From Paracoccaceae bacterium (GTDB lineage Bacteria; Pseudomonadota; Alphaproteobacteria; Rhodobacterales; Rhodobacteraceae), in the NCBI GenBank assembly GCA_022843025.1, contig JALHOL010000005.1, positions 248,001 through 312,000 of the forward strand: 64,000 nt of DNA, given 5' to 3'. The notes beneath the pieces were generated by a model. The model saw only the letters and a list, made by a program, of their open reading frames with translations. It was not told the DNA's origin and made no database searches. The first letter of the stretch is position 1. The number at the start of each line of letters is the position of its first letter. Positions 16,786 to 50,762 of the stretch are shown here, piece by piece. A program made the translations under genes and the position numbers.

Positions 16786-18228
16786 ATGGCCGGGATCGCG
16801 TTTCTGCTGAACGGAACGCCGGTTCGCGTCACGGGGGAACCCCCGACGCGGACACTTCTCGATTGGCTGCGCGACGGGCGCGGCCTGTGCGGCACCAAAG
16901 AGGGCTGCAATGAAGGCGATTGCGGTGCCTGCACCGTGATGGTGACGGATGAGGATGGCAGCCGCGCGCTGAATGCCTGCATTCTGTTCCTGCCGCAACT
17001 GGCGGGCAAGGCCGTCCGCACCGTGGAAGGCATCGCCGCGCCGGATGGCACGCAGCACCCGGTGCAAGCGGCCATGGTCACTCATCACGGGTCACAATGC
17101 GGCTTCTGCACGCCGGGCTTTGTGGTGTCGATGGCGGTGGCCCATCTGAACGGCCAGACCGACCATGACGATGCGCTGGCGGGCAACCTGTGCCGCTGCA
17201 CCGGCTATGCCCCGATCATCCGCGCGGCGCAGGCCGCCGAATCCGCCCCCGTGCCGGATTGGATGAAAGACGACAGCCGCTTCATCTTGGCCCAAATACC
17301 CAAAGACAACGCCTCCGCAGGCTCCACCCTTCAGGAAAAGATGCCCGGGGGGTCCGGGGGGACGGATGTCCCCCCGGCCTTCCAACCCCAATCCTCGGAT
17401 GAACTCGCCGACTGGTACCTCGCCCATCCCGATGCCACGCTCATTGCCGGGGCCACCGATGTTGGCCTGTGGGTCACCAAACAGCTGCGCGACCTGAAAC
17501 CTGTCGCCTTCCTCAACGGGATGCGCGACCTGCAACAGATCGAGGTTCAGGGCGGCATGCTGCATGTCGGCGCAGGCGTGACCATCGCCGCGCTGCGCGC
17601 GGCGGTGGCCGCACGCCTGCCCTCTTTCGCGGAACTGCTGCGCCGCTATGCCAGCGAACAGGTCCGCAATGCCGCCACCATCGGCGGCAATATCGCCAAC
17701 GGCTCGCCTATCGGCGATGGCCCGCCCGCGCTGATCGCGTTGGGGGCGACGCTCCACCTGCGCCGCGGCGATGACATGCGGTCCATCCCGCTGGAGGATT
17801 TCTTCCTCGACTACCGCAAGCAGGACCGCAACCCCGGTGAATTTGTGGCCGGGATCAGCTTCCCCGAAACGGCCCCCGCCCTGCGCTGTTACAAGATCTC
17901 CAAACGCTTTGATCAGGACATCTCGGCCGTCTGTGGCTGCTTCAACATCACCGTCACCGATGGCCGCGTCACCTCTGCCCGCATCGGCTTTGGTGGCATG
18001 GCGGGCATCCCGAAACGCGCCACCCATGTCGAACAGGCCCTGATCGGCCAACCCTGGACAGAGGCGACAGTCACCGCTGCTCTGCCCGCCTTTGCGCAGG
18101 ATTTCACCCCGCTCTCCGATATGCGCGCCAGCGCGGGCTATCGGTTGGAAACGGCGGCGAACCTGCTGGTCCGCTATTTCCACGATCTGAACGGCGCCCC
18201 AGTGTCGGTGCTGGAGGTCGCGCCATGA
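16786..18228 (+). CDS. xdhA: Xanthine dehydrogenase small subunit (2Fe-2S and FAD domains)
   Basis: XdhA carries electrons from the molybdenum site in XdhB to NAD. The first plant-type 2Fe-2S cluster uses Cys41, Cys46, Cys49 and Cys64. The second uses Cys105, Cys108, Cys136 and Cys138 (QCGFC and LCRCTGY). The FAD domain starts near residue 205, with [10 protein letters not shown] and later [14 protein letters not shown]. The 480-residue length is near normal. The linker between the two domains (about 167-198) is odd: its DNA (17286-17378) looks like the genome's intergenic hairpin repeat read in frame. The stop overlaps xdhB (ATGA). Confidence 0.93.
17286..17378 (+). repeat. Copy of the dispersed hairpin repeat inside the xdhA coding sequence
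   Basis: The segment begins with ATCTTGGCCCAAATACCC, which resembles the TTCTCTGC-AAAATATCC lead of the intergenic copies. It ends with GGGGGGTCC followed by the perfect 10-bp stem CCGGGGGGAC (17354-17363), loop GGAT and GTCCCCCCGG (17368-17377). The other copies at 33346, 43675 and 48533 have the same GGGGGTCCGGGGG arm. Here it is translated as the interdomain linker of XdhA without breaking the frame. Confidence 0.6.
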
Positions 18229-20537
18229 CCATGGGAAAATCCCTCCCGCATGACGCGGCCCCGCTGCATGTCACCGGACAGGCGCGCTATGTGGATGACA
18301 TCCCGCTTCCATCCAACGCCCTGCATCTGGCCTTTGGCCTGTCCAGCATTGCGCATGGCGATATCACGGCGATGGACCTTTCCGCCGTGTGCGCCGCGCC
18401 GGGTGTCGTTGCAGTCTGGTCATCGGCGGATTTCGACGAGATGCCGGATTGCAGCCCCTCGGTCCATGACGAACCGCTTCTGGCCACGGGCCGGGTCCAT
18501 TACCTTGGCCAGCCCATCTTCATGGTCGTGGCCGACAGCCACCTTGCCGCCCGCCGCGCGGCCCGTCTGGCCAAGGTCACCTATGCGGAACTCCCTGCCC
18601 TGCTCACGGTCGATGACGCGCTGGCGGCCAACAGCCGGTTCGAACAAGGCCCCGTCGTCTGGACAAAGGGCGATCCCACCGCTGCGCTGGCTTCCGCGCC
18701 CCACATGGTCGAAGGCCAGTTCGAGGTGGGTGGTCAGGAACATTTCTACCTCGAAGGTCAGGTCGCCGCCTGCCTGCCGCTGGAAGGCGGTGATGTGCTG
18801 ATCCATTCCTCCACCCAGCACCCGACCGAGATTCAGCACAAGGTCGCCCACGCCCTGCATATTCCGATGAATGCGGTCCGGGTTGAGGTGCGGCGCATGG
18901 GCGGCGGCTTTGGCGGCAAGGAAAGCCAGGGCAACGCGCTGGCCATTGCCTGCGCCATCGCGGCCACCCGGCTGAACCGCCCGGCCAAAATGCGCTATGA
19001 CCGCGACGATGACATGATGATCACCGGCAAGCGGCACGATCTGCGAATCCTCTACCGCGCCGGGTTTGATGATCAGGGGCGTGTGACGGGGCTGGAATTC
19101 ACCCACCTGTTCCGCTGTGGCTGGGCGCAGGATCTGTCACTGCCCGTGGCCGACCGCGCCATGCTGCATGCCGACAACTGCTATCACCTGCCGGACATCC
19201 GTATCGAAAGCCACCGCCTGAAAACCAACACCCAAAGCGCCACCGCCTTTCGCGGTTTCGGTGGCCCGCAGGGGATGGTGGGCGTGGAACGGGTGATGGA
19301 TCACATCGCCCACGCCCTTGGCCGTGATCCGCTGGCCGTCCGGCGCGCGAATTTCTATCGCCCGATGGGCCAGCCGGGGCCAGAGTCACACCGGGTGCAA
19401 TCCACCCCCTATCACATGCCGGTCGAGGATTTCGCCGGCCATGACCTTGTGGCCGAACTGGAAAAGACCAGCGATTACCAGAAGCGCCGGGCCGATATCG
19501 CCGCATGGAACGCCACCAGCCCGATCCTGAAACGTGGACTGGCGCTGACGCCGGTGAAATTCGGCATCTCCTTCACGCTGACCCATCTCAATCAGGCGGG
19601 GGCCTTGGTGCATGTCTATCAAGACGGGTCGATCCACCTGAACCACGGCGGCACCGAAATGGGGCAGGGCTTGTTCCAAAAGGTTGCGCAGGTGGTGGCG
19701 GCTGTGTTCGGCGTGGGAACGGACCTCGTCAAGATCACTGCCACGGATACGGCCAAGGTGCCCAATACCTCGGCCACTGCCGCCTCGTCAGGGTCTGATC
19801 TCAATGGCATGGCGGCGCAGGCGGCGGCGGAAACGATCCGCACGCGCTTGGCCGATTTCATCGGTGAAAAGCATCAGGTCCCCGCTGCCAAGGTGCGCTT
19901 TGCCGATGGCGCGGTGCATGTGGCGGGGGAAAGCTATGATTTCGCCCGCGTGGTGATGTGGGCCTATCAAGCGCGGGTGTCGCTGTCGGCCACAGGCTTT
20001 TACGCCACGCCCAAGATTGTGTGGGATAGGGTGCGCGGCACAGGCCGCCCTTTCTTTTACTTCGCCTATGGCGCGGCGGTGACCGAAGTGGTGATCGACA
20101 CGCTGACAGGCGAAAACCGCATCCTGCGCGCCGATCTGCTGCATGATACCGGCAACAGCCTGAACCCCGCGCTGGATATCGGGCAGGTCGAAGGCGCCTA
20201 TGTCCAGGGCGCAGGCTGGCTGACGACCGAGGAACTGGTGTGGGACGGCAAAGGCCGCCTCGCGACCCATGCCCCCAGCACCTACAAAATCCCCGCCTGT
20301 TCCGACCGCCCTCGAGTGTTCAACGTGGCCCTCTGGGGCCGCCCCAACCCCGAAAACTCCGTCGGCAAATCCAAGGCCGTGGGAGAGCCGCCCTTCATGC
20401 TGGGCATTTCCGCGCTTTATGCCCTGTCTGATGCCGTGGCCGCCTGTGGGGATGGGTCAGTCTACCCCGCACTCGACGCGCCTGCCACGGCAGAGCGGGT
20501 GCTGGCCGCCGTGAAACGGGTGCGCGGGCATGTTTGA
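18225..20537 (+). CDS. xdhB: Xanthine dehydrogenase large subunit (molybdopterin)
   Basis: This 770-residue subunit hydroxylates hypoxanthine and xanthine to urate at a molybdenum-pterin centre. Visible features are the N-terminal [11 protein letters not shown], the cofactor-binding MGGGFGGKE near 225-233, [11 protein letters not shown] (about 340-350), HGGTEMGQG near 470, and the catalytic Glu721 in VGEPPF. The length matches bacterial XdhB. It sits between xdhA and xdhC with overlaps of 4 and 8 bp, so the three are made together. The following importer genes suggest that purine bases are taken up from outside. Confidence 0.94.
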
Positions 20538-21468
20538 CCTCTCCGCCCTGCAATCCGCCATTGCGGCACATGGGTCTGTCGCCCGCGTGGTGATTGCCGC
20601 CCATGATGGCAGCAGCCCGCGCGAGGTGGGGGCGGCGATGCTGGTCTGGCAGGGCGGGCAATCCGGCACCATCGGTGGCGGCGCGCTGGAATGGGAGGCC
20701 ACGACCCGCGCCCGCGCCATGCTGGCCGCAGGCGGCACGCGGCTGGACCGTGAGGCATTGGGGCCAAAGCTGGGCCAATGTTGCGGCGGCGCGGTTACCG
20801 TGCTGACCGAGGTTTTCGATACCGCCAACCTGCCGCAACCAGAGGCAGGCGTCATCGCCCGCAGCGCCGACGGCCGCGCGATGCCCCTATCCGTCAAGCG
20901 CCTGCTGGCGCGGGCGCGGGGCGAAGGCGTGGCCCCACGGGCGGTGCTGGTCCAGGGCTGGATGGTGGAACCCCTCGCCCGGGCCGAGCGTGAGGTCTGG
21001 ATCTGGGGCGCAGGTCATGTCGGCCGCGCATTGGTGGATGTGCTGGCCCCCCTGCCCGGCGTGGCGATCACCTGGCTGGATATCGCCGCCGAGCGTTTTC
21101 CCAAAACGCTGCCTGTGAATGTGACAGCCCGCTCCGCGCCCGATCCGGCAGCGCTGGTGGCAGATGCCCCAGTGCGGGCGGAACACCTGATCCTTACCTT
21201 TTCACATGCGCTTGACCTGGAACTCTGCCACCGTCTGCTGGGTCACGGTTTCGCCACCTGCGGGTTGATCGGTTCGGCAACAAAATGGGCGCGGTTCCGG
21301 TCGCGACTGGCGGGGCTGGGCCACAGCCCGCAATCCATCGCGCGCATCGATTGCCCCATCGGCGACCCCGGCCTTGGCAAACATCCGCAGGCCATCGCTG
21401 TGGGCGTCGCAATGGCCTTTCTTCGACACGGAAAAAACAACGCGTCACGACAGGAGAACGCGGGATGA
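20530..21468 (+). CDS. xdhC: Xanthine dehydrogenase accessory protein
   Basis: XdhC binds the molybdenum cofactor and inserts the sulfurated form into XdhB; it is not part of the final enzyme. The 312-residue protein has the family's N-terminal domain with SSPREVGAAMLV and GTIGGGALEWE, CCGG near residue 83 (cofactor-binding Cys), and a C-terminal Rossmann domain with WIWGAGHVGRALVDVL around 158-172. It overlaps xdhB by 8 bp and the ABC ATPase gene by 4 bp (ATGA), linking maturation, enzyme and transporter in one transcript. Confidence 0.92.
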   Translation: MFDLSALQSAIAAHGSVARVVIAAHDGSSPREVGAAMLVWQGGQSGTIGGGALEWEATTRARAMLAAGGTRLDREALGPKLGQCCGGAVTVLTEVFDTANLPQPEAGVIARSADGRAMPLSVKRLLARARGEGVAPRAVLVQGWMVEPLARAEREVWIWGAGHVGRALVDVLAPLPGVAITWLDIAAERFPKTLPVNVTARSAPDPAALVADAPVRAEHLILTFSHALDLELCHRLLGHGFATCGLIGSATKWARFRSRLAGLGHSPQSIARIDCPIGDPGLGKHPQAIAVGVAMAFLRHGKNNASRQENAG

Positions 21469-23021
21469 CAGGGACAAATACGGGGACAGAGACGGTTACG
21501 AATAAGGAACTTCTGGCCGTCATCGGCGTGACCAAGGCTTATCCGGGCGTGGTGGCCAACAGCGACGTGTCCTTCAGCATCGCCGAGGGCGAGGTTCACG
21601 CCCTGCTGGGCGAAAACGGCGCGGGCAAATCCACGCTGGTCAAGATGATCTATGGCCTTGTGAAACCCGACAGCGGCCAGATGCGCTTTCGCGGCCAGCC
21701 CTACCAACCGTCGGAGCCAAAGGCCGCAAGGGCCGCCGGCGTGGCGATGGTGTTTCAGCATTTCAGCCTGTTCGAGGCGCTGAGCGTCGCCGAAAACGTG
21801 GCGCTGGGCATGGAAAACCCGCCCCCCATGCGCGAACTTGCCGGCCGCATCAAATCGGTGAGCGAGGCTTATGGCCTGCCGCTCGATCCCGGCCGGATGG
21901 TGGGCGATCTGTCGGCGGGCGAACGCCAGCGCGTGGAAATCATCCGCTGTCTTTTGCAGAACCCCAAGCTGCTGATCATGGACGAACCCACCAGCGTGCT
22001 GACCCCGCAAGAGGTGGACATCCTGTTCACCACCCTGCGCAAGCTGGCATCTGAGGGCACAGCGATCCTTTACATCAGCCACAAGCTGGAAGAGATCCGC
22101 GCGCTCTGTGATGAGGCCACGATCCTGCGGCGCGGCAAGGTGGTGGCAACCTGCACCCCGCGCGACCGGTCGGCGCGCGAAATGGCCGAACTCATGGTCG
22201 GTGCGACGCTGACCCCCCCCGCCCGCGCCGCCCTGCCCAAAGGCGATACCGCGCTGGAGGTGACGGGGCTTTCCGTGAACTCCCCCATCCCCTTTGGCAT
22301 GAGCCTGAAGGACGTCAATTTCCGCGTAGCGCGGGGCGAGGTGCTGGGCATCGCGGGCGTGGCAGGCAACGGGCAGGATGAATTGCTGCTGGCGCTGTCG
22401 GGGGAACTGCGCACCGACCCCGGTGCCGTGAAGATCGACGGCAAACCGATGGGGGCCACGGGGCCAAACGCGCGGCGCGCGGCGGGGCTTGTTGCCGCGC
22501 CCGAAGAACGGCTGGGCCATGCCGCTGCACCCGACATGAGCCTTGTGGAAAATGCGCTGCTGTCGGGCGTGGTGCGCAAGGCGCTGGTGAAGAACGGCTT
22601 CATCGACTGGGCCGCCACCGGGCGCTTTGCCGCCGAAATCGTGAGAGATTTCGACGTCCGCACCCCCGGCACCCATGTCGCGGCGCGCGCGCTGTCGGGG
22701 GGGAACCTGCAAAAGTTCGTGGTCGGGCGGGAACTGTCGCAATCGCCCAGCGTCATCGTCATCAACCAGCCCACCTGGGGCGTCGATGCGGCAGCGGCGG
22801 CGTCGATCCGGCAGGCGATCCTTGACCGCGCAGCCGAAGGCGCGGCCGTGGTGGTGATCAGTCAGGATCTAGATGAACTGCTGGAAATCGCCGACAACTT
22901 CGCCGCCCTGAACACCGGGCGGCTGACCAAGCCGCGCCCGGTAGAGGGGCTGACGATTGATGAGATCGGCCTGATGATGGGCGGCGCGCATGGGATGGAG
23001 GTGGCACATGTGGGCCAGTGA
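21465..23021 (+). CDS. ABC transporter ATP-binding protein of a purine/nucleoside (BMP-type) importer
   Basis: The protein is a duplicated ATPase of 518 residues, the form used by sugar and nucleoside importers of the RbsA/YufO type. The first half has Walker A GENGAGKST, signature LSAGERQRVE and Walker B LLIMDEPTS. The second half has a degenerate Walker A (GVAGNGQDE) and LSGGNLQKF. ATG 21465 is chosen because AGGAG lies 8 nt upstream and it overlaps the xdhC stop. Two permease genes and a BMP-family binding protein follow. The link to xdhABC suggests xanthine, hypoxanthine or a purine nucleoside as substrate. Confidence 0.88.
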   Translation: MTGTNTGTETVTNKELLAVIGVTKAYPGVVANSDVSFSIAEGEVHALLGENGAGKSTLVKMIYGLVKPDSGQMRFRGQPYQPSEPKAARAAGVAMVFQHFSLFEALSVAENVALGMENPPPMRELAGRIKSVSEAYGLPLDPGRMVGDLSAGERQRVEIIRCLLQNPKLLIMDEPTSVLTPQEVDILFTTLRKLASEGTAILYISHKLEEIRALCDEATILRRGKVVATCTPRDRSAREMAELMVGATLTPPARAALPKGDTALEVTGLSVNSPIPFGMSLKDVNFRVARGEVLGIAGVAGNGQDELLLALSGELRTDPGAVKIDGKPMGATGPNARRAAGLVAAPEERLGHAAAPDMSLVENALLSGVVRKALVKNGFIDWAATGRFAAEIVRDFDVRTPGTHVAARALSGGNLQKFVVGRELSQSPSVIVINQPTWGVDAAAAASIRQAILDRAAEGAAVVVISQDLDELLEIADNFAALNTGRLTKPRPVEGLTIDEIGLMMGGAHGMEVAHVGQ

Positions 23022-23105: not shown

Positions 23106-24194
23106 ATGGTAAGACTGGAAAAACGTCCCTCTCCCAGCGCCTTCTGGCAATGGGCGACCCCGGTGCTGGCCGTGGTGCTGACGATGATCGCGGGCGGCAT
23201 CATGTTCGCCATTCTGGGCAAAAACCCGTTCGAAGCGATCCGGACCATCTTCTGGGATCCTTTGTTCAACGAACAATTCGCCTCTTATTCGCGGCCGCAA
23301 CTGCTGGTGAAGGCGGGGCCGCTGATCCTGATCGCAGTGGGCCTGTCGCTCGGGTTCCGCGCCGGCATCTGGAACATCGGGGCCGAGGGGCAATACATCA
23401 TGGGCGCCATCTTTGGCGCGGCGGTGGGTCTGGCTCTCTATCCCATTGAAACGCGCTGGGTGTTTCCACTGATGGTCTTGGCGGGCATCTTTGGCGGCTG
23501 GCTTTGGGCCATGATCCCGGCCATCTTGAAGACGCGCTTCAACACCAATGAAATCCTTGTTTCGCTGCTGCTGGTCTATGTGGCGCAGAACATCCTCGCC
23601 TCCATGTCCATCGGCCTGTTGCGCAACCCCGAAGGCGGCGGCTTTCCCGGCAGCCGCAACCTGAGCCAGATCCCTTCCATGGCCAACCCGGAACTGATCC
23701 CCGGCACCGGCCTGCATTGGGGGGTGATCCTGGCCTTCGTCGTGGTGATCGCCGCCTATATCCTACTGCAACGCCACATCCTTGGCTATCACATCAAGCT
23801 GGCCGGTCAGGCCCCCAAGGCCGCGCGCTTTGCCGGGGTCAGCCCGAACCGCCTTGTCGTGCTGTGCATGGGCCTGTCGGGCGCGCTGGCCGGAATGGCG
23901 GGGCTGTTTGAGGTGACGGGGCCGTCCGGCCAGATCAGCATTGATTTCAACGTGGGCTATGGCTTCACCGCCATCATCGTGGCCTTCCTTGGCCGGTTGA
24001 ACCCCATCGGCATCCTGCTGGCAGGCCTTCTAATGGCGCTGACCTATATCGGCGGCGAACTGGCCAGCTTCATGCTTGGCCTGCCCGCCGCCGCAATTCA
24101 GGCCTTTCAGGGGATGCTTCTTTTCTTCCTGCTGGCGGTCGATCTGCTGACGAACTTCCGCATCCGCTTTGGCACGAGAAAGGAGGCGCACTGA
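23106..24194 (+). CDS. ABC transporter permease (BMP-type importer, first subunit)
   Basis: This 362-residue integral membrane protein has about nine to ten hydrophobic segments and the BPD_transp_2 family stretch FRAGIWNIGAEGQYIMGAIFGA near 80-100. NTNEILVSLLLVYVA near 150 is also typical of nucleoside-importer permeases. A CGGGAGAG site precedes the ATG. It is separated from the ATPase gene by 84 bp, which contains a small CCTGCGGCAGG hairpin, and overlaps the next permease by one base (TGATG). It should form the channel with the second permease. Confidence 0.88.
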   Translation: MVRLEKRPSPSAFWQWATPVLAVVLTMIAGGIMFAILGKNPFEAIRTIFWDPLFNEQFASYSRPQLLVKAGPLILIAVGLSLGFRAGIWNIGAEGQYIMGAIFGAAVGLALYPIETRWVFPLMVLAGIFGGWLWAMIPAILKTRFNTNEILVSLLLVYVAQNILASMSIGLLRNPEGGGFPGSRNLSQIPSMANPELIPGTGLHWGVILAFVVVIAAYILLQRHILGYHIKLAGQAPKAARFAGVSPNRLVVLCMGLSGALAGMAGLFEVTGPSGQISIDFNVGYGFTAIIVAFLGRLNPIGILLAGLLMALTYIGGELASFMLGLPAAAIQAFQGMLLFFLLAVDLLTNFRIRFGTRKEAH

Positions 24195-25126
24195 TGGATC
24201 TCGGTGGCATCAATCCGGCAATCCTGATCGCCTCGCTCATGGTGGCGTCCGTCCCGATCATCCTTGCCGCGCTGGGCGAGTTGGTGGTGGAAAAGGCGGG
24301 CGTCCTGAACCTCGGTGTTGAGGGTATGATGATCATGGGCGCGATCTGCGGCTTTGCCACGGCGGTCGCGACCGGCAACCCCTATCTGGGTTTTCTGGGA
24401 GGTGCGCTGGGCGCAGCTTGCCTGAGCCTTGTTTTTGCGGTGCTGACGCAGTTCTTCCTTGCCAATCAGGTGGCGACGGGGCTTGCGCTCACTCTGTTCG
24501 GGCTGGGGCTGTCCAGCCTGATCGGGCAAAGCTATGTGGGCATCAAGCCGCCGCTGACGGGCACCGTTCCCCTTGGCCCGATGGCGGATATCCCCTTCTT
24601 CGGCCCGGTCCTGTTTGACCATGACTGGATGGTCTATCTTTCCATCGCCGCCTGCGGCGCAGTCTGGGCCGTTCTGAAATATAGCCGCATGGGCCTTGTG
24701 CTGCGTGCGGTGGGCGAAAGCCACGATGCCGCCCATGCACTGGGCTACAAGGTGGTGCGTATCCGCGTGCTGGCGATCCTCTTCGGTGGGGCGCTGGCGG
24801 GGCTGGGCGGCGCCTATATCAGCCTGATCCGCGTGCCCCAATGGACCGATGGCATCACCGCCGGTGCCGGCTGGATCGCGCTGGCCATTGTGGTCTTTGC
24901 CAGCTGGAAACCCTGGCGTATCCTGCTTGGTGCCTATCTTTTTGGCGGAATCACCGTGTTACAGCTTAACCTGCAGGCAGCTGGGGCCAGAATCCCGGTC
25001 GAATACTTGTCGATGAGTCCGTATCTGATAACCATCCTCGTGCTGGTCATCATGTCTTCGGGCAAGGGCAAGGCAGCACTGAACGCGCCTGCCGCGCTGG
25101 GACAGAACTTCCACGCCTCACGCTGA
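24194..25126 (+). CDS. ABC transporter permease (BMP-type importer, second subunit)
   Basis: At 310 residues this is the partner permease, with the paired family signature GELVVEKAGVLNLGVEGMM near 30-48 and VATGLALTLFGLGLS near 95. About eight to nine membrane segments are expected. The start overlaps the previous stop by one base. The C-terminus is followed by a 50-bp gap before the binding-protein gene, enough for the higher expression usual for binding proteins. The role is transport of purine-type substrates across the inner membrane, by context. Confidence 0.88.
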   Translation: MDLGGINPAILIASLMVASVPIILAALGELVVEKAGVLNLGVEGMMIMGAICGFATAVATGNPYLGFLGGALGAACLSLVFAVLTQFFLANQVATGLALTLFGLGLSSLIGQSYVGIKPPLTGTVPLGPMADIPFFGPVLFDHDWMVYLSIAACGAVWAVLKYSRMGLVLRAVGESHDAAHALGYKVVRIRVLAILFGGALAGLGGAYISLIRVPQWTDGITAGAGWIALAIVVFASWKPWRILLGAYLFGGITVLQLNLQAAGARIPVEYLSMSPYLITILVLVIMSSGKGKAALNAPAALGQNFHASR

Positions 25127-27710: not shown

Positions 27711-27730
27711 CGTCCCCCAGCTTTCCTGTC

Positions 27731-27765: not shown

Positions 27766-27797
27766 CAACCGCCGCGCGCCGTGGCAGGTTCACGCCC

Positions 27798-29776: not shown

Positions 29777-29845
29777 AACGCGAAGAACCGCCCGGTCTGG
29801 CAATCAGGCGTGACAGCCGCACGCAGATCGGTCAGCATCCCGCCC

Positions 29846-40693: not shown

Positions 40694-40747
40694 CACCCGG
40701 CCCGGAACTTGCCGTACTTCCCTGCACAACCGCAAGGAGAACGCGCC

Positions 40748-40900: not shown

Positions 40901-41260
40901 TCAAGACCCGCGATAGGTGGAATAGGCAAAAGGCGAAATCAGCAGCGGCACATGATAGTGCTGCGCCGCATCCGGCACGCCGAACCGTATCGGGATCTCG
41001 TCCAGAAACAACACATCACCTTCTGCCTGACCGGTGGCGCGCAAATAATCCCCTGCGCAGAACACCAACTCATAGCTGCCCGCGGTGAAATCCTTCCCCG
41101 TCAACATCGGCGCATCCGTGCGGCCATCAGCATTGGTCACCGTCTCGGCGATCTTGCGGTGGGAATTCCCGCTCACCCGATACAGCATGATCTTTACACC
41201 CGCCGCGGGCTTGCCCCGCGCCGTATCCAGAACATGGGTCGTCAACCGTCCACCGCTCAT
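40901..41260 (-). CDS. uraH: 5-Hydroxyisourate hydrolase
   Basis: This transthyretin-like enzyme hydrolyses 5-hydroxyisourate from PuuD to OHCU. The 119-residue chain has the family signatures: LTTHVLDTARGKPAAGV near 6-22 with the active-site His, RTDAP near 47, and the C-terminal tetrapeptide YRGS. HYHVPLLISPFAYSTYRGS holds the second active-site His pair. GAGGAGG is 6 nt before the ATG. It is divergent from the PuuE-UraD gene, whose UraD part uses its product. Confidence 0.95.
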   Translation of the reverse strand: MSGGRLTTHVLDTARGKPAAGVKIMLYRVSGNSHRKIAETVTNADGRTDAPMLTGKDFTAGSYELVFCAGDYLRATGQAEGDVLFLDEIPIRFGVPDAAQHYHVPLLISPFAYSTYRGS

Positions 41261-42830: not shown

Positions 42831-43663
42831 CCGGCTACTACGCCCCCCCCGGCGGCCTGCCCCCGCAAACCAGCCTGATGACAGGCCGCGCCGTCTTTAC
42901 CGACGCCTATGCCTTCCTGCCCAAGGGCGTGTTCTCCGACATCGTCACCAGCTACCTGCCGGGCTGGTCCAAGACCCGCCTCTGGCTGATCGCCCGCCCC
43001 ATGACCGGCTTCTCGGAAACCTTCAGCCAATATGTGATGGAGGTCGCCCCCGGCGGCGGCTCTGACGCGCCCGATCCCGATGCCGGGGTGGAACATTGGC
43101 TGTTCTTCACGGGTGGCCTCGCCACCGTCACTGTCGGCGGCCAAGGCCATGATGTCGAGGCGGGCAGTTACCTCTACATCCCCGCCGGAACCCCTTGGAA
43201 ACTGCTGGCCGAAGGCGCGGAACCCACGCGCTTCCACTGGCTGCGCAAGCTCTATGAACCCGCGCCCGGCCTGCCGCATCCGGAACCCATCTTCATCAAC
43301 GAACGCGATGTCGCGCCCATCGCCATGCCCGATACACAGGGCCGCTGGGCCACCACCCGCTTCGCCGATCCCGCCGATCTGCGCCATGACGCGCATGTCA
43401 ACATCGTCACCTTCCAACCCGGCGGCGTGATCCCGTTCGAGGAAACCCACGTCATGGAACACGGGCTGTACGTGCTGGAAGGCAAAGCTGTCTACAAACT
43501 GAACAAAGACTGGGTCGAGGTCGAGGCAGGCGATTTCATGTGGCTCCGCGCCTTCTGCCCGCAGGCCTGCTATGCCGCAGGCCCCGGCCCCTTCCGCTAT
43601 CTCCTTTACAAGGACGTCAACCGCCACGCCAAACTGCGCGGGCCGTTCTCATTCCCGCGCTGA
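42827..43663 (+). CDS. allE: (S)-ureidoglycine aminohydrolase, bicupin
   Basis: AllE converts (S)-ureidoglycine to (S)-ureidoglycolate, a manganese-dependent step that follows allantoate hydrolysis. The 278-residue protein has two cupin domains (about 60-130 and 190-265) with family features GVEHWLFFTGG, YLYIPAGTPW, and metal ligands in PFEETHVMEHGLYVLEG near 203-219. It overlaps the fused allantoinase gene by 4 bp. The expected partner, allantoate amidohydrolase (allC), is not in the window; a bifunctional allantoicase activity has been proposed for some members but cannot be judged here. A dispersed hairpin repeat follows. Confidence 0.9.
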   Translation: MTGYYAPPGGLPPQTSLMTGRAVFTDAYAFLPKGVFSDIVTSYLPGWSKTRLWLIARPMTGFSETFSQYVMEVAPGGGSDAPDPDAGVEHWLFFTGGLATVTVGGQGHDVEAGSYLYIPAGTPWKLLAEGAEPTRFHWLRKLYEPAPGLPHPEPIFINERDVAPIAMPDTQGRWATTRFADPADLRHDAHVNIVTFQPGGVIPFEETHVMEHGLYVLEGKAVYKLNKDWVEVEAGDFMWLRAFCPQACYAAGPGPFRYLLYKDVNRHAKLRGPFSFPR

Positions 43664-43747: not shown

Positions 43748-44221
43748 ATGAAACAGATCAGGACCGAACCGCTCACCACCGCCGCCTTCGCCCCCTTCGG
43801 CGATGTGCTGGATGCGACGGGCGATTTCCGCCTGATCAATGCCGGCCTCTGCCAGCGTCACCATGACCGCGCGCAGCTTGATTTCGGGCCCGATGGCCGC
43901 GCAGGTATCTCCATCTTCAAGGCCGAACCGCGCGCGCTGCCCTACAGCTTTGATCTGATCGAACGCCACCCCGATGGCGCGCAGGCCTTTCTGCCGATGT
44001 CGGAACACCCGTTCCTTGTGATCGTATCCGCAGGCCCCGACGCCATGCCTCGCGCTTTCCTCACCAACGGCGCGCAAGGCATCAACCTGCATCGCGGCAC
44101 CTGGCACGGTGTCCTCACGCCACTTTACGCCCCCGGTCTCTTTGCCGTGGTCGACAGGATCGGCCCCACACCGAATATCGAGGAATTCCGTTATCCGCAG
44201 CCTTGGGTCGTGTCCGCTTAA
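43748..44221 (+). CDS. allA: Ureidoglycolate lyase
   Basis: AllA splits ureidoglycolate to glyoxylate and urea. The 157-residue protein is the normal length and has the family N-terminus (PLTTAAFAPFGDVL), INAGLCQRHHDRAQLDF near 30-46, and the C-terminal GTWHGVLTPL with the active-site His near 120. It completes the urate-to-glyoxylate genes. It follows allE after 84 bp containing a hairpin repeat. Its stop is 3 bp from the convergent gap gene. Its product, glyoxylate, is the substrate of the bhc cluster that follows. Confidence 0.93.
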   Translation: MKQIRTEPLTTAAFAPFGDVLDATGDFRLINAGLCQRHHDRAQLDFGPDGRAGISIFKAEPRALPYSFDLIERHPDGAQAFLPMSEHPFLVIVSAGPDAMPRAFLTNGAQGINLHRGTWHGVLTPLYAPGLFAVVDRIGPTPNIEEFRYPQPWVVSA

Positions 44222-44224
44222 GGA

Positions 44225-45199
44225 TCACCCCATCCGCAACGCGACGTCCAGCATCCGGTTGGAAAAACCCCATTCGTTGTCGTACCAACCAAACACGCGC
44301 AGCATCCCACCCGCCGTCACCCGCGTTTCCGGGCAGGCCATGACGATGCTCTCTGGCCGCGCCCGCAAGTCGGTCGATACCAGCGGTTTGTCGGTCGCCC
44401 CGATCACCCCGCCCGCTGCCCGCAAGGCGGCATTCACCGCCGCCACATCGGCGCGCCGCTCCGTCATCACCGCAAGGTCCACGCACGAGACCGAGGCGGT
44501 CGGCACCCGCACCGCCGACCCTTCGATCCGCCCTGCAATCTGCGGCAGGACCCGGTCCAGCAACCGGCTGGCCGAAGTTGTCGTCGGCACCATCGACAGT
44601 GCCGCCGCCCGCGAACGGGGATAATCGGCCGCCGGCGCATCCACCGTGGGCTGACTGCCGGTATAGCAATGGATCGTCGTCATCGACCCGGTCACCACGC
44701 CCCAGTGATCGTCGATCAGCCGCGCCAGCGGTGCCAACGCGTTGGTCGTGCAAGACGCGTTCGACACAATCGCCTGACCCGCAAGCTGATCGTCATTCGC
44801 CCCCAGCACCACGGTCAGATCCGCCGCCTGCGATGGCCCCGACACCAGCACCCGCCGCGCGCCCGCGCGCAGCCCCCGCTCCGCCACCTCGCGCGCATCC
44901 GCCCGCCCGGTGCATTCCATCACCACGTCGATCCCGCGCAGATCAAGCGAAGCGATATCCGGCGTCCGATGCAGCGGAATGGCCCGCCCATCCACCACCA
45001 ACGCCCCCGCCTCAAGCGTGACCGTCCCGCGCCAAGGGCCAAAGACGCTGTCATATTCAAACAGATAGGCGCACATCTCCGGCGCGGCGATGTCGTTGAT
45101 CCCCGCCACCTGCAACCCCGGCCAACGCTCGGGTGATTGCAGAAAGGCCCGCAGCACCGACCGCCCGATCCGCCCGAACCCGTTGATAAAGACACGCAT
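44225..45199 (-). CDS. gap: Glyceraldehyde-3-phosphate dehydrogenase-like protein
   Basis: The 324-residue protein has the NAD site FINGFGRIGRSVLRAF (4-19), the catalytic Cys in NASCTTNALAPLA near 149-161, the His in TTIHCYTG, and the C-terminal WYDNEWGFSNRMLD. It is a type I GAPDH or the closely related erythrose-4-phosphate dehydrogenase; SxGPSQAAD in place of the common SAPAKD at about 120-127 is unusual for GAPDH. No other glycolytic gene is near, so it may be a second, specialised copy. It lies convergent to allA and upstream of nothing obvious on its own strand. Confidence 0.85.
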   Translation of the reverse strand: MRVFINGFGRIGRSVLRAFLQSPERWPGLQVAGINDIAAPEMCAYLFEYDSVFGPWRGTVTLEAGALVVDGRAIPLHRTPDIASLDLRGIDVVMECTGRADAREVAERGLRAGARRVLVSGPSQAADLTVVLGANDDQLAGQAIVSNASCTTNALAPLARLIDDHWGVVTGSMTTIHCYTGSQPTVDAPAADYPRSRAAALSMVPTTTSASRLLDRVLPQIAGRIEGSAVRVPTASVSCVDLAVMTERRADVAAVNAALRAAGGVIGATDKPLVSTDLRARPESIVMACPETRVTAGGMLRVFGWYDNEWGFSNRMLDVALRMG

Positions 45200-45339: not shown

Positions 45340-46305
45340 CTAAACCTCCGCCTCAACCCCCAGCCCGCGCTCAAGCGCCCGCGCCACGGCCACCGCCGCC
45401 ACGGCCAGATCCTGCAACCCAACACCCGTGCCATCGAACAGCGTGATTTCGTCAGCCGATCCCCGCCCCGGATGCACCCCGGTCAGCACATTGCCCAAAG
45501 GCGTGATGTCGCCCTCGGCCACCAGACCCGCTGCCACGGCATGCTGCGCCTCACCGATGGAAACCGATTGCGCCACCTCATCGGTGAACAGCCGTGCCTT
45601 GGCCACCAGCGCAGGCTCCACCTCCTGCTTGCCCTTGGTATCCGTCCCCATGCAGGCCAGATGCGTGCCCGATGCCACATGCGCCGCCATCAGCGATGCC
45701 GCGGGGGATGAGGTGATGGTGATGATCGCATCCGCCTCGACCATCCGCTCCAGCCCCACCGCCTCGAACGGCAAGCCCAGTTCCGCGGCGACCTCGCCCA
45801 ACTTGGGCAGCATCTCGGGATGCAGGTTCCAGGCGATCACGCGATCCCAGTTCCGCACACGCGCCGCCGCGCGCAACTGGAACCCCGCCTGATGCCCCGC
45901 CCCCACAATGCCCAGCACCCGCGCATCCGCCCGCGCCAGCCGGTCGATCGACAGGGCCGAAGCCGCCGCCGTCCGCAGCGCCGTCAGCAGGTTGCCCCCC
46001 ACCATCGCCGTCGGGCGCCCACTGTCGGGATCGAACAGATAGACCGTCGACTGATGATTGGTGATCCCCCGTGCGGCATTGCCGGGAAAATACCCCCCGG
46101 CCTTCACCCCCAGCATCCCGCCTGCCCGGTCTAGGCCCGACTTGAACCCGTACTGCCGCCCCTCGCCCAACGCCTCGCGCACGACAGGAAAGTTATAGGC
46201 CTCACCCCGCGCCATGGCGGCAAAAGTCGCCTCCACCGCCGCAAAGGCATCGGCAGGCGACACCAGCCCCGCAATCAACGCTTCGGGAACAACCAGCATG
46301 GGCAA
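45340..46305 (-). CDS. bhcD: Iminosuccinate reductase (ornithine cyclodeaminase family)
   Basis: BhcD reduces iminosuccinate to L-aspartate with NADH, closing the beta-hydroxyaspartate cycle by regenerating the amino donor used by BhcA. The 321-residue protein belongs to the ornithine cyclodeaminase/mu-crystallin family, with the dinucleotide site GIVGAGHQAGFQL near 131-143 and conserved LRTAAASALSIDRLA before it. The identification rests on its place after bhcA, B and C in the order known from Paracoccus. A degenerate hairpin repeat fills the 72-bp gap to bhcC. Confidence 0.92.
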   Translation of the reverse strand: MPMLVVPEALIAGLVSPADAFAAVEATFAAMARGEAYNFPVVREALGEGRQYGFKSGLDRAGGMLGVKAGGYFPGNAARGITNHQSTVYLFDPDSGRPTAMVGGNLLTALRTAAASALSIDRLARADARVLGIVGAGHQAGFQLRAAARVRNWDRVIAWNLHPEMLPKLGEVAAELGLPFEAVGLERMVEADAIITITSSPAASLMAAHVASGTHLACMGTDTKGKQEVEPALVAKARLFTDEVAQSVSIGEAQHAVAAGLVAEGDITPLGNVLTGVHPGRGSADEITLFDGTGVGLQDLAVAAVAVARALERGLGVEAEV

Positions 46306-46377: not shown

Positions 46378-47541
46378 TCAATAGGCCTTGCCGCGCGCCG
46401 ATACGGGCCAGACCACCTCGACCTTGCCACCCCGGACGCCCACATACCAATCATGGACGTTGCAGGTCGGGTCGCAATGGCCGGGCACCAGACGCAGCTT
46501 GTCATTCACCTTCAGCACGCCTTGGGGATCGTCGATCACCCCATGCTCATCACTGCACTTGACGTACTTCACATCCGTGCGCCCAAAAATCACCGGCAGC
46601 CCGCTATCCACCGACTGCGCCTTCAGCCCTGCATCGCAGATCGCCTTCTCCGCCTTGGCATGGCTCATAACGCTGGTCAGGATGAACAGCGCATTCTCCC
46701 ATTCCCCCTGATCAATCCGCTTGCCATCCTTGTCCAGAATGCGCCCGTAATCGGCATCCATAAAGGCGTATGACCCGCATTGCAGCTCGTTATACACCCC
46801 CGAATTGCCTTCGAAATAATAGGACCCCGTCCCACCCCCGCCTACGATATCGCAGGCGATCCCCTCAGCCTTCAGCGTATCAACAGCATCCCGCACCATC
46901 GCCACCGCAATGTCGATCTTGGCCTTGCGATCTTCATACTTGTCCATGTGCTGCATTGCGCCCTGATAGGCCTGAAGGCCGCTGAACTTCAGCCCGGGCG
47001 CCGCGTCAATCGCCTTGGCCAAAGCCACCACCGCGGGCGTCGTTGTCACCCCGCAGCGCCCCGCGCCGCAGTCGATCTCCACCAGACATTCGATCGTGGT
47101 GCCATGCTTCACCGCCGCCGCCGACAGGTCCGCCACATTGGCCAAATCATCCACACAGCAGATCGCCCGCGCCCCCAGCTTCGGGATCCGCGCCAGACGG
47201 TCAATCTTGGCCGGATCGCGCACCTGATTGGAAACCAGCACATCCTTGATGCCGCCGCGCGCAAAGACCTCGGCCTCGCTCACCTTCTGGCAGCACACCC
47301 CCACCGATCCGCCCAGCCGCTCCTGCAACAGCGCCACATCCACGGATTTGTGCATCTTGCCATGCACCCGGTGCCGCACGCCCATATCCCGCGCGAACTT
47401 GCCCATCTTCGCAATGTTACGCTCCAGCGCATCCAGATCCAGCACAAGGCAGGGCGTCTGAATATCTGCCTCACTCATCCCCGGCAGGGCCGGAATGTCA
47501 TAGCCCACTTCCAGCCCGTCGAAATCCGTTCTTCCGTCCAT
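46378..47541 (-). CDS. bhcC: erythro-beta-Hydroxyaspartate aldolase
   Basis: BhcC condenses glycine with glyoxylate to (2R,3S)-beta-hydroxyaspartate with PLP and a divalent metal. It belongs to the D-threonine aldolase (DSD1-like) family. The 387-residue protein has the PLP site HRVHGKMHKS (59-68) with Lys62 as likely Schiff base, CGAGRCGV near 165, FVSGGG-like VGGGGTGSYYFEG and the C-terminal metal motif PGHCDPTCNVHDWY. The start ATG at 47541 has AAAGGG 8 nt upstream; ATG 47547 and TTG 47562 are less well placed. It follows bhcB with 5 bp between. Confidence 0.93.
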   Translation of the reverse strand: MDGRTDFDGLEVGYDIPALPGMSEADIQTPCLVLDLDALERNIAKMGKFARDMGVRHRVHGKMHKSVDVALLQERLGGSVGVCCQKVSEAEVFARGGIKDVLVSNQVRDPAKIDRLARIPKLGARAICCVDDLANVADLSAAAVKHGTTIECLVEIDCGAGRCGVTTTPAVVALAKAIDAAPGLKFSGLQAYQGAMQHMDKYEDRKAKIDIAVAMVRDAVDTLKAEGIACDIVGGGGTGSYYFEGNSGVYNELQCGSYAFMDADYGRILDKDGKRIDQGEWENALFILTSVMSHAKAEKAICDAGLKAQSVDSGLPVIFGRTDVKYVKCSDEHGVIDDPQGVLKVNDKLRLVPGHCDPTCNVHDWYVGVRGGKVEVVWPVSARGKAY

Positions 47542-47546
47542 CGTCA

Positions 47547-48518
47547 TCACCCTTTCATCCAAGGCAGCTTGTCCAGATCCACATTCCCGCCGGTCAGGAT
47601 CACCCCCACCCGTTTGCCCCGGAACCGTTCCGGGTTCTTCAGGATCACCGCCAGCGGGACCGAACAGCTGGCCTCAATCACGATCTTCATCCGCTTCCAG
47701 TGCAGCTTCATCGCCTCCACGATCTCATCCTCCGTGGCGGTCAGCACATCGGTCACGTGGTTCTTCACGAAATGCCAGGTCAGGTCCTTCAATGGCACCT
47801 TCAATCCGTCTGCCACCGTATCGGGCGCATCATCGGCGATGATATGGCCTGCCCGGAAACTGCGCGCCGCATCATCGGCATTCACCGGTTCCGCCGCAAA
47901 GATCTCTACCCCCGGCGCGGTCGCAGACAGGGTCAGGCAGGTGCCCGAAATCATCCCGCCCCCGCCAATCGGCGCGACCACGGCCTCCAGCCCCGGCACC
48001 TGCTCCATCAACTCGCGCGAACATGTCCCCTGCCCGGCAATCACGCGCGGGTCGTTATAGGGATGCACGAAATCCGCGCCCGTCCGCGCCTGCACCTCGG
48101 CGAACACCGCCTCACGGCTGCTGGTCGATGGCTCGCATTCCACGATCACCCCGCCATAGCCCCGCACCGCATCCTTCTTGGCATCCGGCGCCGTGCGCGG
48201 CATCACCACCGTGCAAGGAATCCCCCGCCGCCCCGCCGCATAGGACAGGCTCAGCGCATGGTTCCCGCTGCTATGCGTCGCCACCCCCCGCGCGAGTTGA
48301 TCCTCGCGCAGCCCAAAGACGGCATTCGACGCCCCCCGCACCTTGAACGCCCCAGCCTTCTGAAAGTTCTCGCATTTGAAGAACAACTCAGCCCCGGTTA
48401 GCGCGTTCAGATAGCTCGACGTCAAAACCGGAGTCCGGTGGATATACGGCGCAATCCGCCCATGCGCCTCCAGAACATCGTCAAAGGTCGGCACCATCAG
48501 GCCCTGAAAATCCTTCAT
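47547..48518 (-). CDS. bhcB: beta-Hydroxyaspartate dehydratase
   Basis: BhcB dehydrates beta-hydroxyaspartate to iminosuccinate. It is a serine/threonine dehydratase-fold PLP enzyme of 323 residues from ATG 48518. The Schiff-base Lys59 lies in AGAFKVRGA, with SSGNHAL and GGGGMISG binding PLP phosphate. ATG 48518 is chosen because the AAGGAG site stands 10 nt before it and only 1-2 nt before the in-frame ATG at 48527. It lies third to last in the minus-strand bhcA-B-C-D order. Confidence 0.92.
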   Translation of the reverse strand: MKDFQGLMVPTFDDVLEAHGRIAPYIHRTPVLTSSYLNALTGAELFFKCENFQKAGAFKVRGASNAVFGLREDQLARGVATHSSGNHALSLSYAAGRRGIPCTVVMPRTAPDAKKDAVRGYGGVIVECEPSTSSREAVFAEVQARTGADFVHPYNDPRVIAGQGTCSRELMEQVPGLEAVVAPIGGGGMISGTCLTLSATAPGVEIFAAEPVNADDAARSFRAGHIIADDAPDTVADGLKVPLKDLTWHFVKNHVTDVLTATEDEIVEAMKLHWKRMKIVIEASCSVPLAVILKNPERFRGKRVGVILTGGNVDLDKLPWMKG

Positions 48519-48532
48519 CCTGCCCATTCTCC

Positions 48533-48591: not shown

Positions 48592-49782
48592 CTACTCCGC
48601 CGCCAAGGCCATCGGCACCGCCGACCCGCGATAGAACTCCGCTGCCGCCGCCACCCCGGACCCCAGCTTCACCGGCCAGCCCAGATCGGCCATGCACATC
48701 TCGGCTGTGGCCAGACCCGCCAGCACCATCACATCGGTCAGCATCCCCAGATGCCCGATGCGGAACACCTTGCCCGCCACCTCGCCCAGCCCCACACCAA
48801 AGGCCACGCCGTATTTGTCAGCCGCCAGCTTCACCAGATCGGTCCCGTTGCACCCGTCCGGGACCACCACCGCCGTCACCGTGTCGGAATACAGATCCGG
48901 CGACACCGCACAGGGTCGCATCCCCCAGGCGGCCACCGCACGGCGCACCCCTTCGGCCAGCCTTGCATGGCGGGCATAGACGGCCTCCAGCCCCTCATCC
49001 TCCAGCATCTCCACCGCCTTCGCGAGGCCAGAGATCAACCCCACCGCCGGGGTGTAAGGATACCCCCCCGCCGCATAGCTTTTCAGCATGTCTCGGAAAT
49101 CGAAAAAGGTGCGCGGCAGCCCCGCCCCTTCCATCGCCGCCAGCGCCTTGTCGGAAACCCCAAGGATCGCCAACCCCGCTGGCAGCATGAAACCCTTCTG
49201 GCTGCCGGCCACGGCGATATCCACGCCCCAACCCGCCATCTCAAACGGCATCGACCCGATGGAAGAAACGCCGTCCACAAACAACAGCGCGCCATGCCCC
49301 GCCGCATCCATCGCGCGGCGTATCCCCGCGATGTCCGACTTCACCCCTGTCGCCGTCTCATTATGCGTGGCCAGCACCGCCTTGATCCGCCCCGCCCCAT
49401 CGGCCCGCAATGCCGCCTCGATGGCGGCCACCGGCGCACCCTGCCCCCAAGGCGTCTCGATGATCTGCACGTTCAACCCGTGCCGCTGGCACAAGTCGAT
49501 CCAGCGATGGCTGAACATCCCGAACCGCGCCGCCAGCACCGTATCCCCCGCCGACAGCGTGTTGCTGATCGCGGCTTCCCAACCGCCCGTCCCGGTGGAC
49601 GGCAGGATGATCACCTCACCCCCACCCATCCGCAGCACGCGCCGCACGCCATCCACCGCAGGCTTGAACAGCCGCGCAAAGGCGGGTGACCGATGGTCGA
49701 TCGTCGGCATGTCACAGGCCTTGCGGATCGCTTCAGGAATATTGGTGGGGCCGGGAATGAACAGCGGATTCTGGAACGACAT
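48592..49782 (-). CDS. bhcA: L-aspartate:glyoxylate aminotransferase
   Basis: BhcA transfers the amino group from aspartate to glyoxylate, making glycine and oxaloacetate. The 396-residue protein is in the alanine-glyoxylate/serine-pyruvate aminotransferase family (fold type I). It has the N-terminal FIPGPTNIPEAIRKA, STGTGGWEAA for PLP phosphate near 62-71, FVDGVSSIGS and the Schiff-base Lys196 in GSQKGF. It leads the bhc operon. Its start faces the divergent regulator bhcR across 164 bp that contain an AT-rich repeated operator candidate. Confidence 0.93.
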   Translation of the reverse strand: MSFQNPLFIPGPTNIPEAIRKACDMPTIDHRSPAFARLFKPAVDGVRRVLRMGGGEVIILPSTGTGGWEAAISNTLSAGDTVLAARFGMFSHRWIDLCQRHGLNVQIIETPWGQGAPVAAIEAALRADGAGRIKAVLATHNETATGVKSDIAGIRRAMDAAGHGALLFVDGVSSIGSMPFEMAGWGVDIAVAGSQKGFMLPAGLAILGVSDKALAAMEGAGLPRTFFDFRDMLKSYAAGGYPYTPAVGLISGLAKAVEMLEDEGLEAVYARHARLAEGVRRAVAAWGMRPCAVSPDLYSDTVTAVVVPDGCNGTDLVKLAADKYGVAFGVGLGEVAGKVFRIGHLGMLTDVMVLAGLATAEMCMADLGWPVKLGSGVAAAAEFYRGSAVPMALAAE

Positions 49783-49840
49783 CGGCGCTTCCTCTGAAAT
49801 CTATGCTGCGACATTAGGCGCAGCATCCCCACTGCACAAT

Positions 49841-49866
49841 TTTTTCGAAAAGATTTTTCAAAAAGC
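49841..49866. promoter_or_regulatory. Tandem 13-bp repeats between bhcA and bhcR (BhcR operator candidate)
   Basis: TTTTTCGAAAAGA (49841-49853) is followed directly by TTTTTCAAAAAGC (49854-49866), identical at 11 of 13 positions. Each contains a near-palindrome (TTTTCGAAAA). They form the AT-rich core of the intergenic region between the divergent bhcA and bhcR genes, where IclR-type regulators usually bind. Confidence 0.5.
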
Positions 49867-49946
49867 GGAAAATGTCCTATTCTCTATATAAATCAGACAC
49901 TCCCGCTTTTTCACCCGCCGCCACCCCATCGCAGTTAGGCCCGAAC

Positions 49947-50762
49947 ATGCCCACAACCCCCCGCCCCCGTGGCCGCCCCAAGGCCTTCAACGACAAGACC
50001 GATCAGAACACCGTACAGGCGCTTGACCGCGCGCTTGGCCTGCTGACCACACTCGCCGCCGCACCCGGCCTGACGCTCTCGGAACTGGCCGAAACCTCCG
50101 GTCAGGCCGTCGCCACCGTCTACCGCGCCCTCGTCACGCTTCAGGGCCATGGCATGGTCGAACTCGAAGAACCGGGCCAAATCTGGCATATCGGCCCCGG
50201 TGCGTTTCGCGTCGGCTCCGCCTTCCTGCGCCGGACAAAAGTCGTCGAACGCTCCCGCGCCCCGATGGATCAGTTGATGCGCGACAGCGGCGAAACCGCC
50301 AATCTGGGGGTGGAGGTGGGCGATCAGGTCCTGTTCCTGTCACAGGTCGAAACCCATCAGGCCATCCGCGCCTTCTTCCCGCCCGGCACCATGGCCCCAA
50401 TGCATGTCTCCGGCATCGGCAAGGCCCTACTGGCCTGGTATCCCGAAGAGAAAACCCGCGGCATCCTTGCCCGCCGGGGGCTCGAACGCTTCACCACCCT
50501 CACCCACACCTCCGAAACCGCCCTCCTGCGCGACCTCGCCCGCGCCCGCGAACGCGGCTTCGCGATTGATGATCAGGAACGCGCCGAAGGCATGCGCTGC
50601 GTCGCCGCTCCCATTTTCAACAGCCATGGCGAACCCATCGCAGGCCTTTCCGTCAGCGGCCCCGCCTTCCGCATGGGCCTGTCCGACGCCACCCGCATCG
50701 GCACCCTGGTCCGCACCGCCGCCGACAAGGTGACAGAGGCGACAGGCGGCACCCGTCCCTGA
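49947..50762 (+). CDS. bhcR: IclR-family regulator of the beta-hydroxyaspartate cycle
   Basis: BhcR controls the bhc operon in response to glyoxylate. The 271-residue protein has an N-terminal basic arm (PTTPRPRGRPKAF), the IclR winged helix (LDRALGLLTTLAAAPGLTLSELAETSGQAVATVYRALVTL, about 29-68) and the C-terminal effector domain (MHVSGIGKALLAW, near 153). The start ATG at 49947 is chosen because the protein then begins at the conserved RGRPK arm. An in-frame ATG at 49872 would add a 25-residue leader that overlaps the operator region. It is divergent from bhcA. Confidence 0.9.
   Translation: MPTTPRPRGRPKAFNDKTDQNTVQALDRALGLLTTLAAAPGLTLSELAETSGQAVATVYRALVTLQGHGMVELEEPGQIWHIGPGAFRVGSAFLRRTKVVERSRAPMDQLMRDSGETANLGVEVGDQVLFLSQVETHQAIRAFFPPGTMAPMHVSGIGKALLAWYPEEKTRGILARRGLERFTTLTHTSETALLRDLARARERGFAIDDQERAEGMRCVAAPIFNSHGEPIAGLSVSGPAFRMGLSDATRIGTLVRTAADKVTEATGGTRP

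Follow-up and report, generated by a model that had tools for sequence, protein, structure and literature searches.

Where does the glyoxylate released by purine breakdown go in bacteria of the Rhodobacteraceae, and could the beta-hydroxyaspartate cycle be its outlet? The question is raised by a 64,000-nucleotide stretch of DNA from a Paracoccaceae bacterium (NCBI GenBank assembly GCA_022843025.1, contig JALHOL010000005.1, positions 248,001 to 312,000; C5:248001-312000 in a genome of 3.9 Mb), here called the window, in which genes for urate and ureide breakdown stand beside the bhcABCD genes of that cycle. The Bhc enzymes, established elsewhere, give a net conversion of two glyoxylate to one oxaloacetate with no loss of CO2. 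A 2024 mBio paper (PMC11323563), in the part of its text available to us, treats the cycle as a route for glycolate, and its introduction gives purines and allantoin as sources of glyoxylate. The answer proposed here is that the window probably holds a catabolic region of two modules by which purine carbon reaches oxaloacetate; the predicted entry of purine carbon by way of the cycle is well supported by genomics. The observations behind it are the genes and their family membership, a neighbourhood conserved in relatives, no glyoxylate carboligase over cut-off and a conserved box beside bhcR.

Reading frames of the window were scored by codon use, and names were taken from Pfam and NCBIfam and judged against equivalog cut-offs; paired values below are score and cut-off in bits. 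The ureide genes and the bhc block are as follows.

37721-38974, minus strand: puuD, membrane urate oxidase with a C-terminal haem motif (Urate_ox_N, PF06181, 453.8 bits)
38964-40022, plus strand: LysR-type regulator adjoining puuD (PF03466, PF00126)
40901-41260, minus strand: uraH, hydroxyisourate hydrolase (TIGR02962, 132.9/87.45)
41415-42830, plus strand: puuE-uraD fusion, allantoinase and 2-oxo-4-hydroxy-4-carboxy-5-ureidoimidazoline (OHCU) decarboxylase (TIGR03212, 512.4/424.6; TIGR03164, 203.8/96.25)
42827-43663, plus strand: allE, ureidoglycine aminohydrolase (NF008373, 500.6/445; NF040771, 464.7/350)
43748-44221, plus strand: allA, ureidoglycolate lyase, yielding glyoxylate and urea (PF04115, 174 bits against a cut-off of 23)
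44225-45199, minus strand: glyceraldehyde-3-phosphate dehydrogenase (GAPDH)-like gene tied to bhc (Gp_dh_N, Gp_dh_C; SCTTN motif)
45340-46305, minus strand: bhcD, iminosuccinate reductase (NF045643, 527.2/500; best solved structure 6rqa, an iminosuccinate reductase)
46378-47562, minus strand: bhcC, 3-hydroxyaspartate aldolase (NF045642, 763.4/690)
47547-48527, minus strand: bhcB, beta-hydroxyaspartate dehydratase (NF045641, 597.2/550)
48592-49782, minus strand: bhcA, aspartate-glyoxylate aminotransferase (NF045640, 708.2/650)
49872-50762, plus strand: bhcR, IclR-type regulator divergent from bhcA (NF045644, 403/350; second in-frame ATG at 49947)

The genes bhcA, bhcB, bhcC and bhcD are adjacent, and all four score above their NCBI equivalog cut-offs. 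BhcC shares 301 of 387 residues (78%) with a solved D-3-hydroxyaspartate aldolase, 6qkb, and its closest named kin are found in an uncultured Rhodobacteraceae genome (97%), Rhodobacter ruber (93%) and Tabrizicola aquatica (90%). On the ureide side, puuD matched none of the NCBI models; the C-terminal cytochrome c domain of its product falls under the Pfam cut-off (19.9/27), yet one CxxCH motif (CSMCH) is present. AllA narrowly misses its best NCBI equivalog (NF002952, 245.4/260). The GAPDH-like gene between allA and bhcD, absent from the account given by the initial annotation, has GAPDH type I as its best NCBI model, under cut-off (335.8/367.2), with erythrose-4-phosphate dehydrogenase lower (279.7/539); that it encodes a gluconeogenic GAPDH is our guess.

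The presence of both gene sets in one genome says little. In a family survey of 199 genomes (198 genera), PuuE was matched in 193, of which 188 were over cut-off, and BhcC was over cut-off in 84, with any match in 134. Because PuuE is near-universal, its co-occurrence with BhcC is little informative, and only position informs. Stretches of up to 20 kb were therefore considered around 107 BhcC places in 103 genomes, each with a score of roughly 500 bits upwards; neither the window's own locus nor a partial match in genome G026 (362.5 bits) was included. Complete bhcABCD was found at 80 of the 107 places, in 79 genomes. Counting puuD, uraH, puuE-uraD, allA and allE within about 10 kb, at least three of these five ureide genes lay near 24 of the 80 complete loci, and at least one near 28. 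If the chance rate is taken as 0.006 (20-odd kb out of some 4 Mb), 0.5 of 80 would be expected, with a binomial probability of 5.6e-34 that ignores relatedness. Control genes were almost absent from the same 80 loci: dihydropyrimidinase, PreA, carbamoylase, urease, GlcD and GlcE each 0, and malate synthase G 2. Among the 66 loci free of breaks at contig ends, 21 had at least three ureide genes. In a named set (the 80 best loci, from genomes partly overlapping the family survey), 71 had all four bhc genes, and 25 of these 71 had at least three ureide genes, with none in 40. Distances between BhcC and PuuE were taken among the PuuE matches listed, which serve 61 genomes with BhcC over cut-off, including the window's own and two with BhcC alone, and have no row for 23 of the 84 BhcC genomes: the two genes share a contig in 29 of the 61, within 15 kb in 22 and at 53 kb or more in the other seven, and lie on different contigs in 32. 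Co-location in relatives was the check that the initial annotation had named, and its interpretation, that glyoxylate from purines is assimilated through the beta-hydroxyaspartate cycle, is borne out to this extent, and in more than one gene order.

The common order in relatives is puuD, lysR, uraH, puuE-uraD, (allE), allA, (NCS2 permease), (GAPDH-like gene), bhcD-C-B-A, bhcR, (allE), the genes in brackets being variable. A relative of the LysR regulator beside puuD is found in 19 of the 80 complete loci, the nucleobase permease NCS2 follows allA in 19, and the GAPDH-like gene lies near bhc in 24, of which 13 have at least three ureide genes. The placing of bhc between allA and allE is one of several linked arrangements. 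Elsewhere bhc lies beyond puuD (L176, L190), stands with an NCS1 nucleobase symporter beside puuE (L162) or is reshuffled (L151). In L041, L074 and a Pseudosulfitobacter plasmid, NCS1 separates bhcC from bhcD. A Leisingera plasmid carries the run modABC, allE, bhcR, bhcABCD, urea channel, NCS2, allA, puuE, uraH, puuD, xdhABC, interrupted only by two lysR genes and one hypothetical gene; Marinovum and Alloyangia plasmids resemble it. In another taxonomic order, bhc on a Methylobacterium radiotolerans plasmid has 8-oxoguanine deaminase, NCS2 and a molybdopterin enzyme as neighbours. Seventeen purine loci were also read, all of them in genomes selected because BhcC had no match there: the ureide genes recur and much of the order is kept, with bhcA-D absent, and in L211, L218 and L223 allA, NCS2 and allE stand back to back at the point where others carry the bhc block (L220 shows this order as well, interrupted by some 4 kb).

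The start of the route lies upstream, in a second block.

16786-18228, plus strand: xdhA, xanthine dehydrogenase small subunit (TIGR02963, 593.6/467)
18225-20537, plus strand: xdhB, molybdopterin-binding subunit (TIGR02965, 1234.7/849.5)
20530-21468, plus strand: xdhC, accessory protein (TIGR02964, 265.9/161.6)
21285-23021, plus strand: open reading frame of an ABC importer ATPase (two ABC_tran stretches; best NCBI equivalog under cut-off, 433/670)
23106-24194, plus strand: ABC importer permease 1 (BPD_transp_2)
24194-25126, plus strand: ABC importer permease 2 (BPD_transp_2)
25177-26274, plus strand: Bmp/PnrA-type substrate-binding protein (PF02608, 159.8 bits)

The three xdh genes are above their equivalog cut-offs. 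The true start of the ATPase gene is probably more internal, since the reading frame overlaps xdhC. With XdhAB, PuuD, UraH, UraD and PuuE, the gene set from xanthine to allantoate is complete in the window. Xanthine or a precursor would be imported, probably by the BMP importer, whose specificity for a purine or nucleoside we infer, and XdhAB would oxidize xanthine to urate. PuuD, UraH and UraD would then convert urate to S-allantoin, PuuE would open S-allantoin to allantoate, AllE would take allantoate to ureidoglycolate, and AllA would split ureidoglycolate to urea and glyoxylate. In the second module BhcC would condense glyoxylate with glycine, BhcB would dehydrate the product, BhcD would reduce the resulting iminosuccinate to aspartate, and BhcA would transfer the amino group of aspartate to a second glyoxylate, yielding glycine and oxaloacetate. 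These enzyme activities, the flux along the route, growth on purine carbon and the working of the parts as one pathway are predictions from gene content and neighbourhood.

The step from allantoate was left unnamed in the route as first annotated. AllE is above cut-off for two models, ureidoglycine aminohydrolase (500.6/445, the better fit) and bifunctional allantoicase/ureidoglycine aminohydrolase (464.7/350). The latter model, NF040771, we take to be based on Puggioni et al. 2014. The allantoicase model PF03561 had no match in the window's genome; because it was silent there and in all controls, a family-wide re-test was made, and the model then matched in 9 of 199 genomes. Among family loci with puuE, 40 had allE only, six allantoicase only, none both and seven neither (Fisher 7e-5), a test that speaks to exclusion only because all six allantoicase loci had been picked for holding allantoicase. 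In the named set the corresponding counts for puuE loci were 21, 1, 0 and 5 (p 0.22). Three of the seven family loci with neither gene are incomplete at their ends, and two (in G058 and G133) have allantoicase elsewhere in the genome. In L235, L236, L237, L240 and L241 allantoicase lies between puuE-uraD and allA, which is the position of allE in the window. The bifunctional-model score, and the fact that allE was never found beside a true allantoicase, argue that AllE probably performs the cleavage of allantoate as well. Another candidate was rejected. The sole protein of the AllC (hydantoinase/carbamoylase) family over cut-off in the window's genome, at C7:289330, scores 680.8/452 for a subfamily called allantoate amidohydrolase and 215.4/597.75 as AllC; its neighbours (dihydropyrimidinase, PreA and RutR-like regulators) form a pyrimidine cluster, and on the strength of that neighbourhood it is read as a pyrimidine enzyme, although it may have a backup activity on allantoate.

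How might the two modules be regulated together? BhcR has been described as a glyoxylate-responsive activator with a palindromic site upstream of bhcA, according to the text available of PMC11323563. A matrix was built from bhcA-bhcR gaps (147 aligned, 140 used), across which a dyad is conserved in relatives, and the window has one such site.

49839-49865, no strand assigned: putative BhcR box, a TTTTTTTGAAA-to-TTTTTCA dyad between bhcA and bhcR (matrix score 46.9)

The scan found no further strong BhcR-type box in the window, where the next best site scored 17.2, and it does not exclude other sites. In 56 other loci scores above 20 occurred only at bhcA-bhcR and, in four loci, in the uraH-puuE gap.

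Several findings weigh against the reading that purine carbon flows through the cycle. None of the five ureide genes lies within about 10 kb of 52 of the 80 complete bhc loci, or near 41 of the 66 free of contig-end breaks, and PuuE without the cycle is common, with PuuE over cut-off in 188 of 199 genomes and BhcC in 84. As annotated, no purine genes lie within 9 kb of bhc on Aminobacter and Paracoccus marcusii plasmids, and in Sinorhizobium meliloti Rm41 bhc adjoins glcDEF. The window does not carry the nucleobase permease of its relatives, and malate synthase G, an alternative sink for glyoxylate, is encoded elsewhere in its genome. The initial annotation placed the genes from purine to oxaloacetate in one region; every named gene is in place, each found by Pfam or NCBIfam profile matches, but they form two blocks about 11 kb apart, with 26424-37724 occupied by other, unrelated genes (those between the importer and puuD encode an oxidoreductase, an aldo-keto reductase, DAO proteins, GH25, a metal ABC permease, a Fur-type regulator and an aldose epimerase). 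Finally, no BhcR box was found at the window's purine promoters, the best score in its uraH-puuE gap being 0.7. Weak look-alikes in that gap in other loci are not clearly specific to bhc: the median score is 3.2 with bhcC nearby (n=55) and -5.3 without it (n=15), a difference (Mann-Whitney p 0.03) uncorrected for relatedness and repeats. Since these uraH-puuE sites are weak and some occur where bhc is absent, a single BhcR regulon over both modules is not claimed here. On our reading the modules could be coupled through glyoxylate itself, which would suffice without a common operator: rising glyoxylate would switch bhc on via BhcR, making a shared operator unnecessary.

What else could consume the glyoxylate? 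Glyoxylate carboligase (Gcl) was over cut-off in 0 of 199 family genomes at E 1e-190; at most six candidates were scored in each genome, and the E. coli control was positive. The nine candidates of the window's genome were all scored, the strongest (337.2/711.2) falling under the cut-off. Malate synthase G by itself yields no net four-carbon compound from glyoxylate alone. The same gene figures in the alternative that survives best, namely that the purine genes serve nitrogen supply and that bhc mainly removes toxic glyoxylate. The carbon gain would then be incidental, since purines yield four nitrogen atoms for two usable carbons. A urease is encoded elsewhere in the window's genome, a urea channel is linked in the Leisingera plasmid, and the 17 loci from genomes with no BhcC match and the excess of PuuE over BhcC in the survey show purine clusters doing without bhc; yet a mere sink for glyoxylate needs no four-gene, carbon-conserving cycle, as malate synthase G, which is present, would suffice. 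We consider this account somewhat unlikely.

A reading less likely still makes bhc a glyoxylate module of general use, fed here mainly by glycolate, with the purine genes as incidental neighbours. The physiology in print, so far as the available text of PMC11323563 goes, concerns glycolate, and to the Rm41 arrangement can be added a glcDEF-like locus on contig C1 of the window's genome, whose proteins are 67, 49 and 73% identical to those of Rm41 and whose GlcD (425.5/567.9) and GlcE (264.3/284) are both under cut-off. Against this, a search using five queries (two for glcD, two for glcE, one for glcF), including S. meliloti GlcD, E and F, found glycolate oxidase near 0 of the 80 complete bhc loci, compared with at least three ureide genes near 24. 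The bhcABCD-bhcR genes of Paracoccus denitrificans offer the nearest comparison. As noted, the four enzymes and the IclR-type regulator of the window are above equivalog cut-offs, and the window's bhcA-bhcR dyad lies where the palindromic BhcR site is reported in the accessible text of PMC11323563. The published role of that system is a glycolate route, whereas in the window bhc adjoins ureide and GAPDH-like genes, not glcDEF.

The history of the linkage was followed on a BhcC tree of 107 rows, one partial row being omitted; this is a quick tree of low support, with 17 of 104 branches starred as well supported. Twenty-six rows were labelled linked: the 24 family loci, the window and the incomplete L043. 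The linked state requires 18 changes, at least nine of them forced by starred branches, whereas shuffled labels gave a mean of 23.3 changes, with 18 or fewer reached in 1 of 500 shuffles. Linkage is therefore clustered on the tree, yet does not form one clade; an ancestral linkage with repeated breakage and a repeated joining are both possible. That one linked block was simply inherited or carried along on plasmids, with no selected function as a unit, is improbable: linked blocks do occur on plasmids and the dominant gene order is nearly fixed, but the 18 changes on this sparsely supported tree and the survival of linkage in other orders speak against it.

Some further observations concern these genes and their neighbours. 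A reading frame with no family match at 40244-40891 (minus strand), between lysR and uraH, has a counterpart of 49% identity in L016 and recurs in L115-L117. A second BhcA-like aminotransferase (G000:C8:142210-143367; L002, L208) is 55% identical to BhcA, scores 601/650 bits and adjoins a RamB-like regulator (349.6/700). In L219, a locus of genome G046, which lies outside the set with a BhcC match, a BhcR-like regulator (6028-7008; 349.6/350 bits) stands beside purine genes. In L197, from a Defluviimonas plasmid, the island of ureide genes and bhc also holds malate synthase G, pyruvate dehydrogenase and malic enzyme, a possible second glyoxylate route. In L234, a Phaeobacter plasmid, bhcB and bhcC stand alone, with an FAD oxidoreductase, RidA proteins and a TRAP transporter as neighbours; this set perhaps serves an imported amino acid. 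In five genomes (L091, L092, L105, L108, L113) a lone BhcC-like aldolase, with no bhcA, bhcB or bhcD nearby, lies within a purine cluster or next to one, and another has allE alone nearby (L099). No BhcB over cut-off was found in the genomes of the lone purine-cluster BhcC, and a plasmid search with a solo BhcC query returned nothing at E 1e-90. Beyond bhcR, the window has three consecutive peptide deformylase genes followed by a formyltransferase gene (52348-53911).

Among known systems, the PuuD-type ureide clusters of the family share with the window the order puuD, lysR, uraH, puuE-uraD, allE, allA; the window differs in having bhcDCBA-bhcR after allA (after NCS2 in relatives that have it), a block that the 17 control loci lack. 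The AllR regulon of E. coli (allA, gcl) is alike in tying ureide breakdown to the assimilation of glyoxylate, controlled by a glyoxylate-sensing member of the IclR family (PMC11323563, in the available text). It differs in using glyoxylate carboligase, for which neither the window's genome nor the 199 family genomes gave a match over cut-off, and no operator common to both modules was found in the window. A literature search judged on titles and the openings of abstracts returned nothing recognisably on purine clusters joined to bhc. What appears to be new here is the apparent coupling of ureides to glyoxylate use through the beta-hydroxyaspartate cycle, the coupling in E. coli through Gcl being known.

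A wider proposal, which we offer tentatively and on balance doubt, is that in many genera of the Rhodobacterales the cycle is chiefly an outlet for purine carbon rather than for glycolate, that growth on purine carbon depends on it, and that the lone BhcC of purine clusters may be a reduced form. The dependence is proposed because the family has no glyoxylate carboligase over cut-off, and that absence across 199 genomes sharpens the prediction that growth on purines would require bhc. In sum, the conserved neighbourhood suggests that these bacteria use purine carbon besides purine nitrogen. If purine breakdown is a usual partner of the cycle, dissolved purines would feed them carbon too, with no loss of CO2 in the steps that assimilate glyoxylate.

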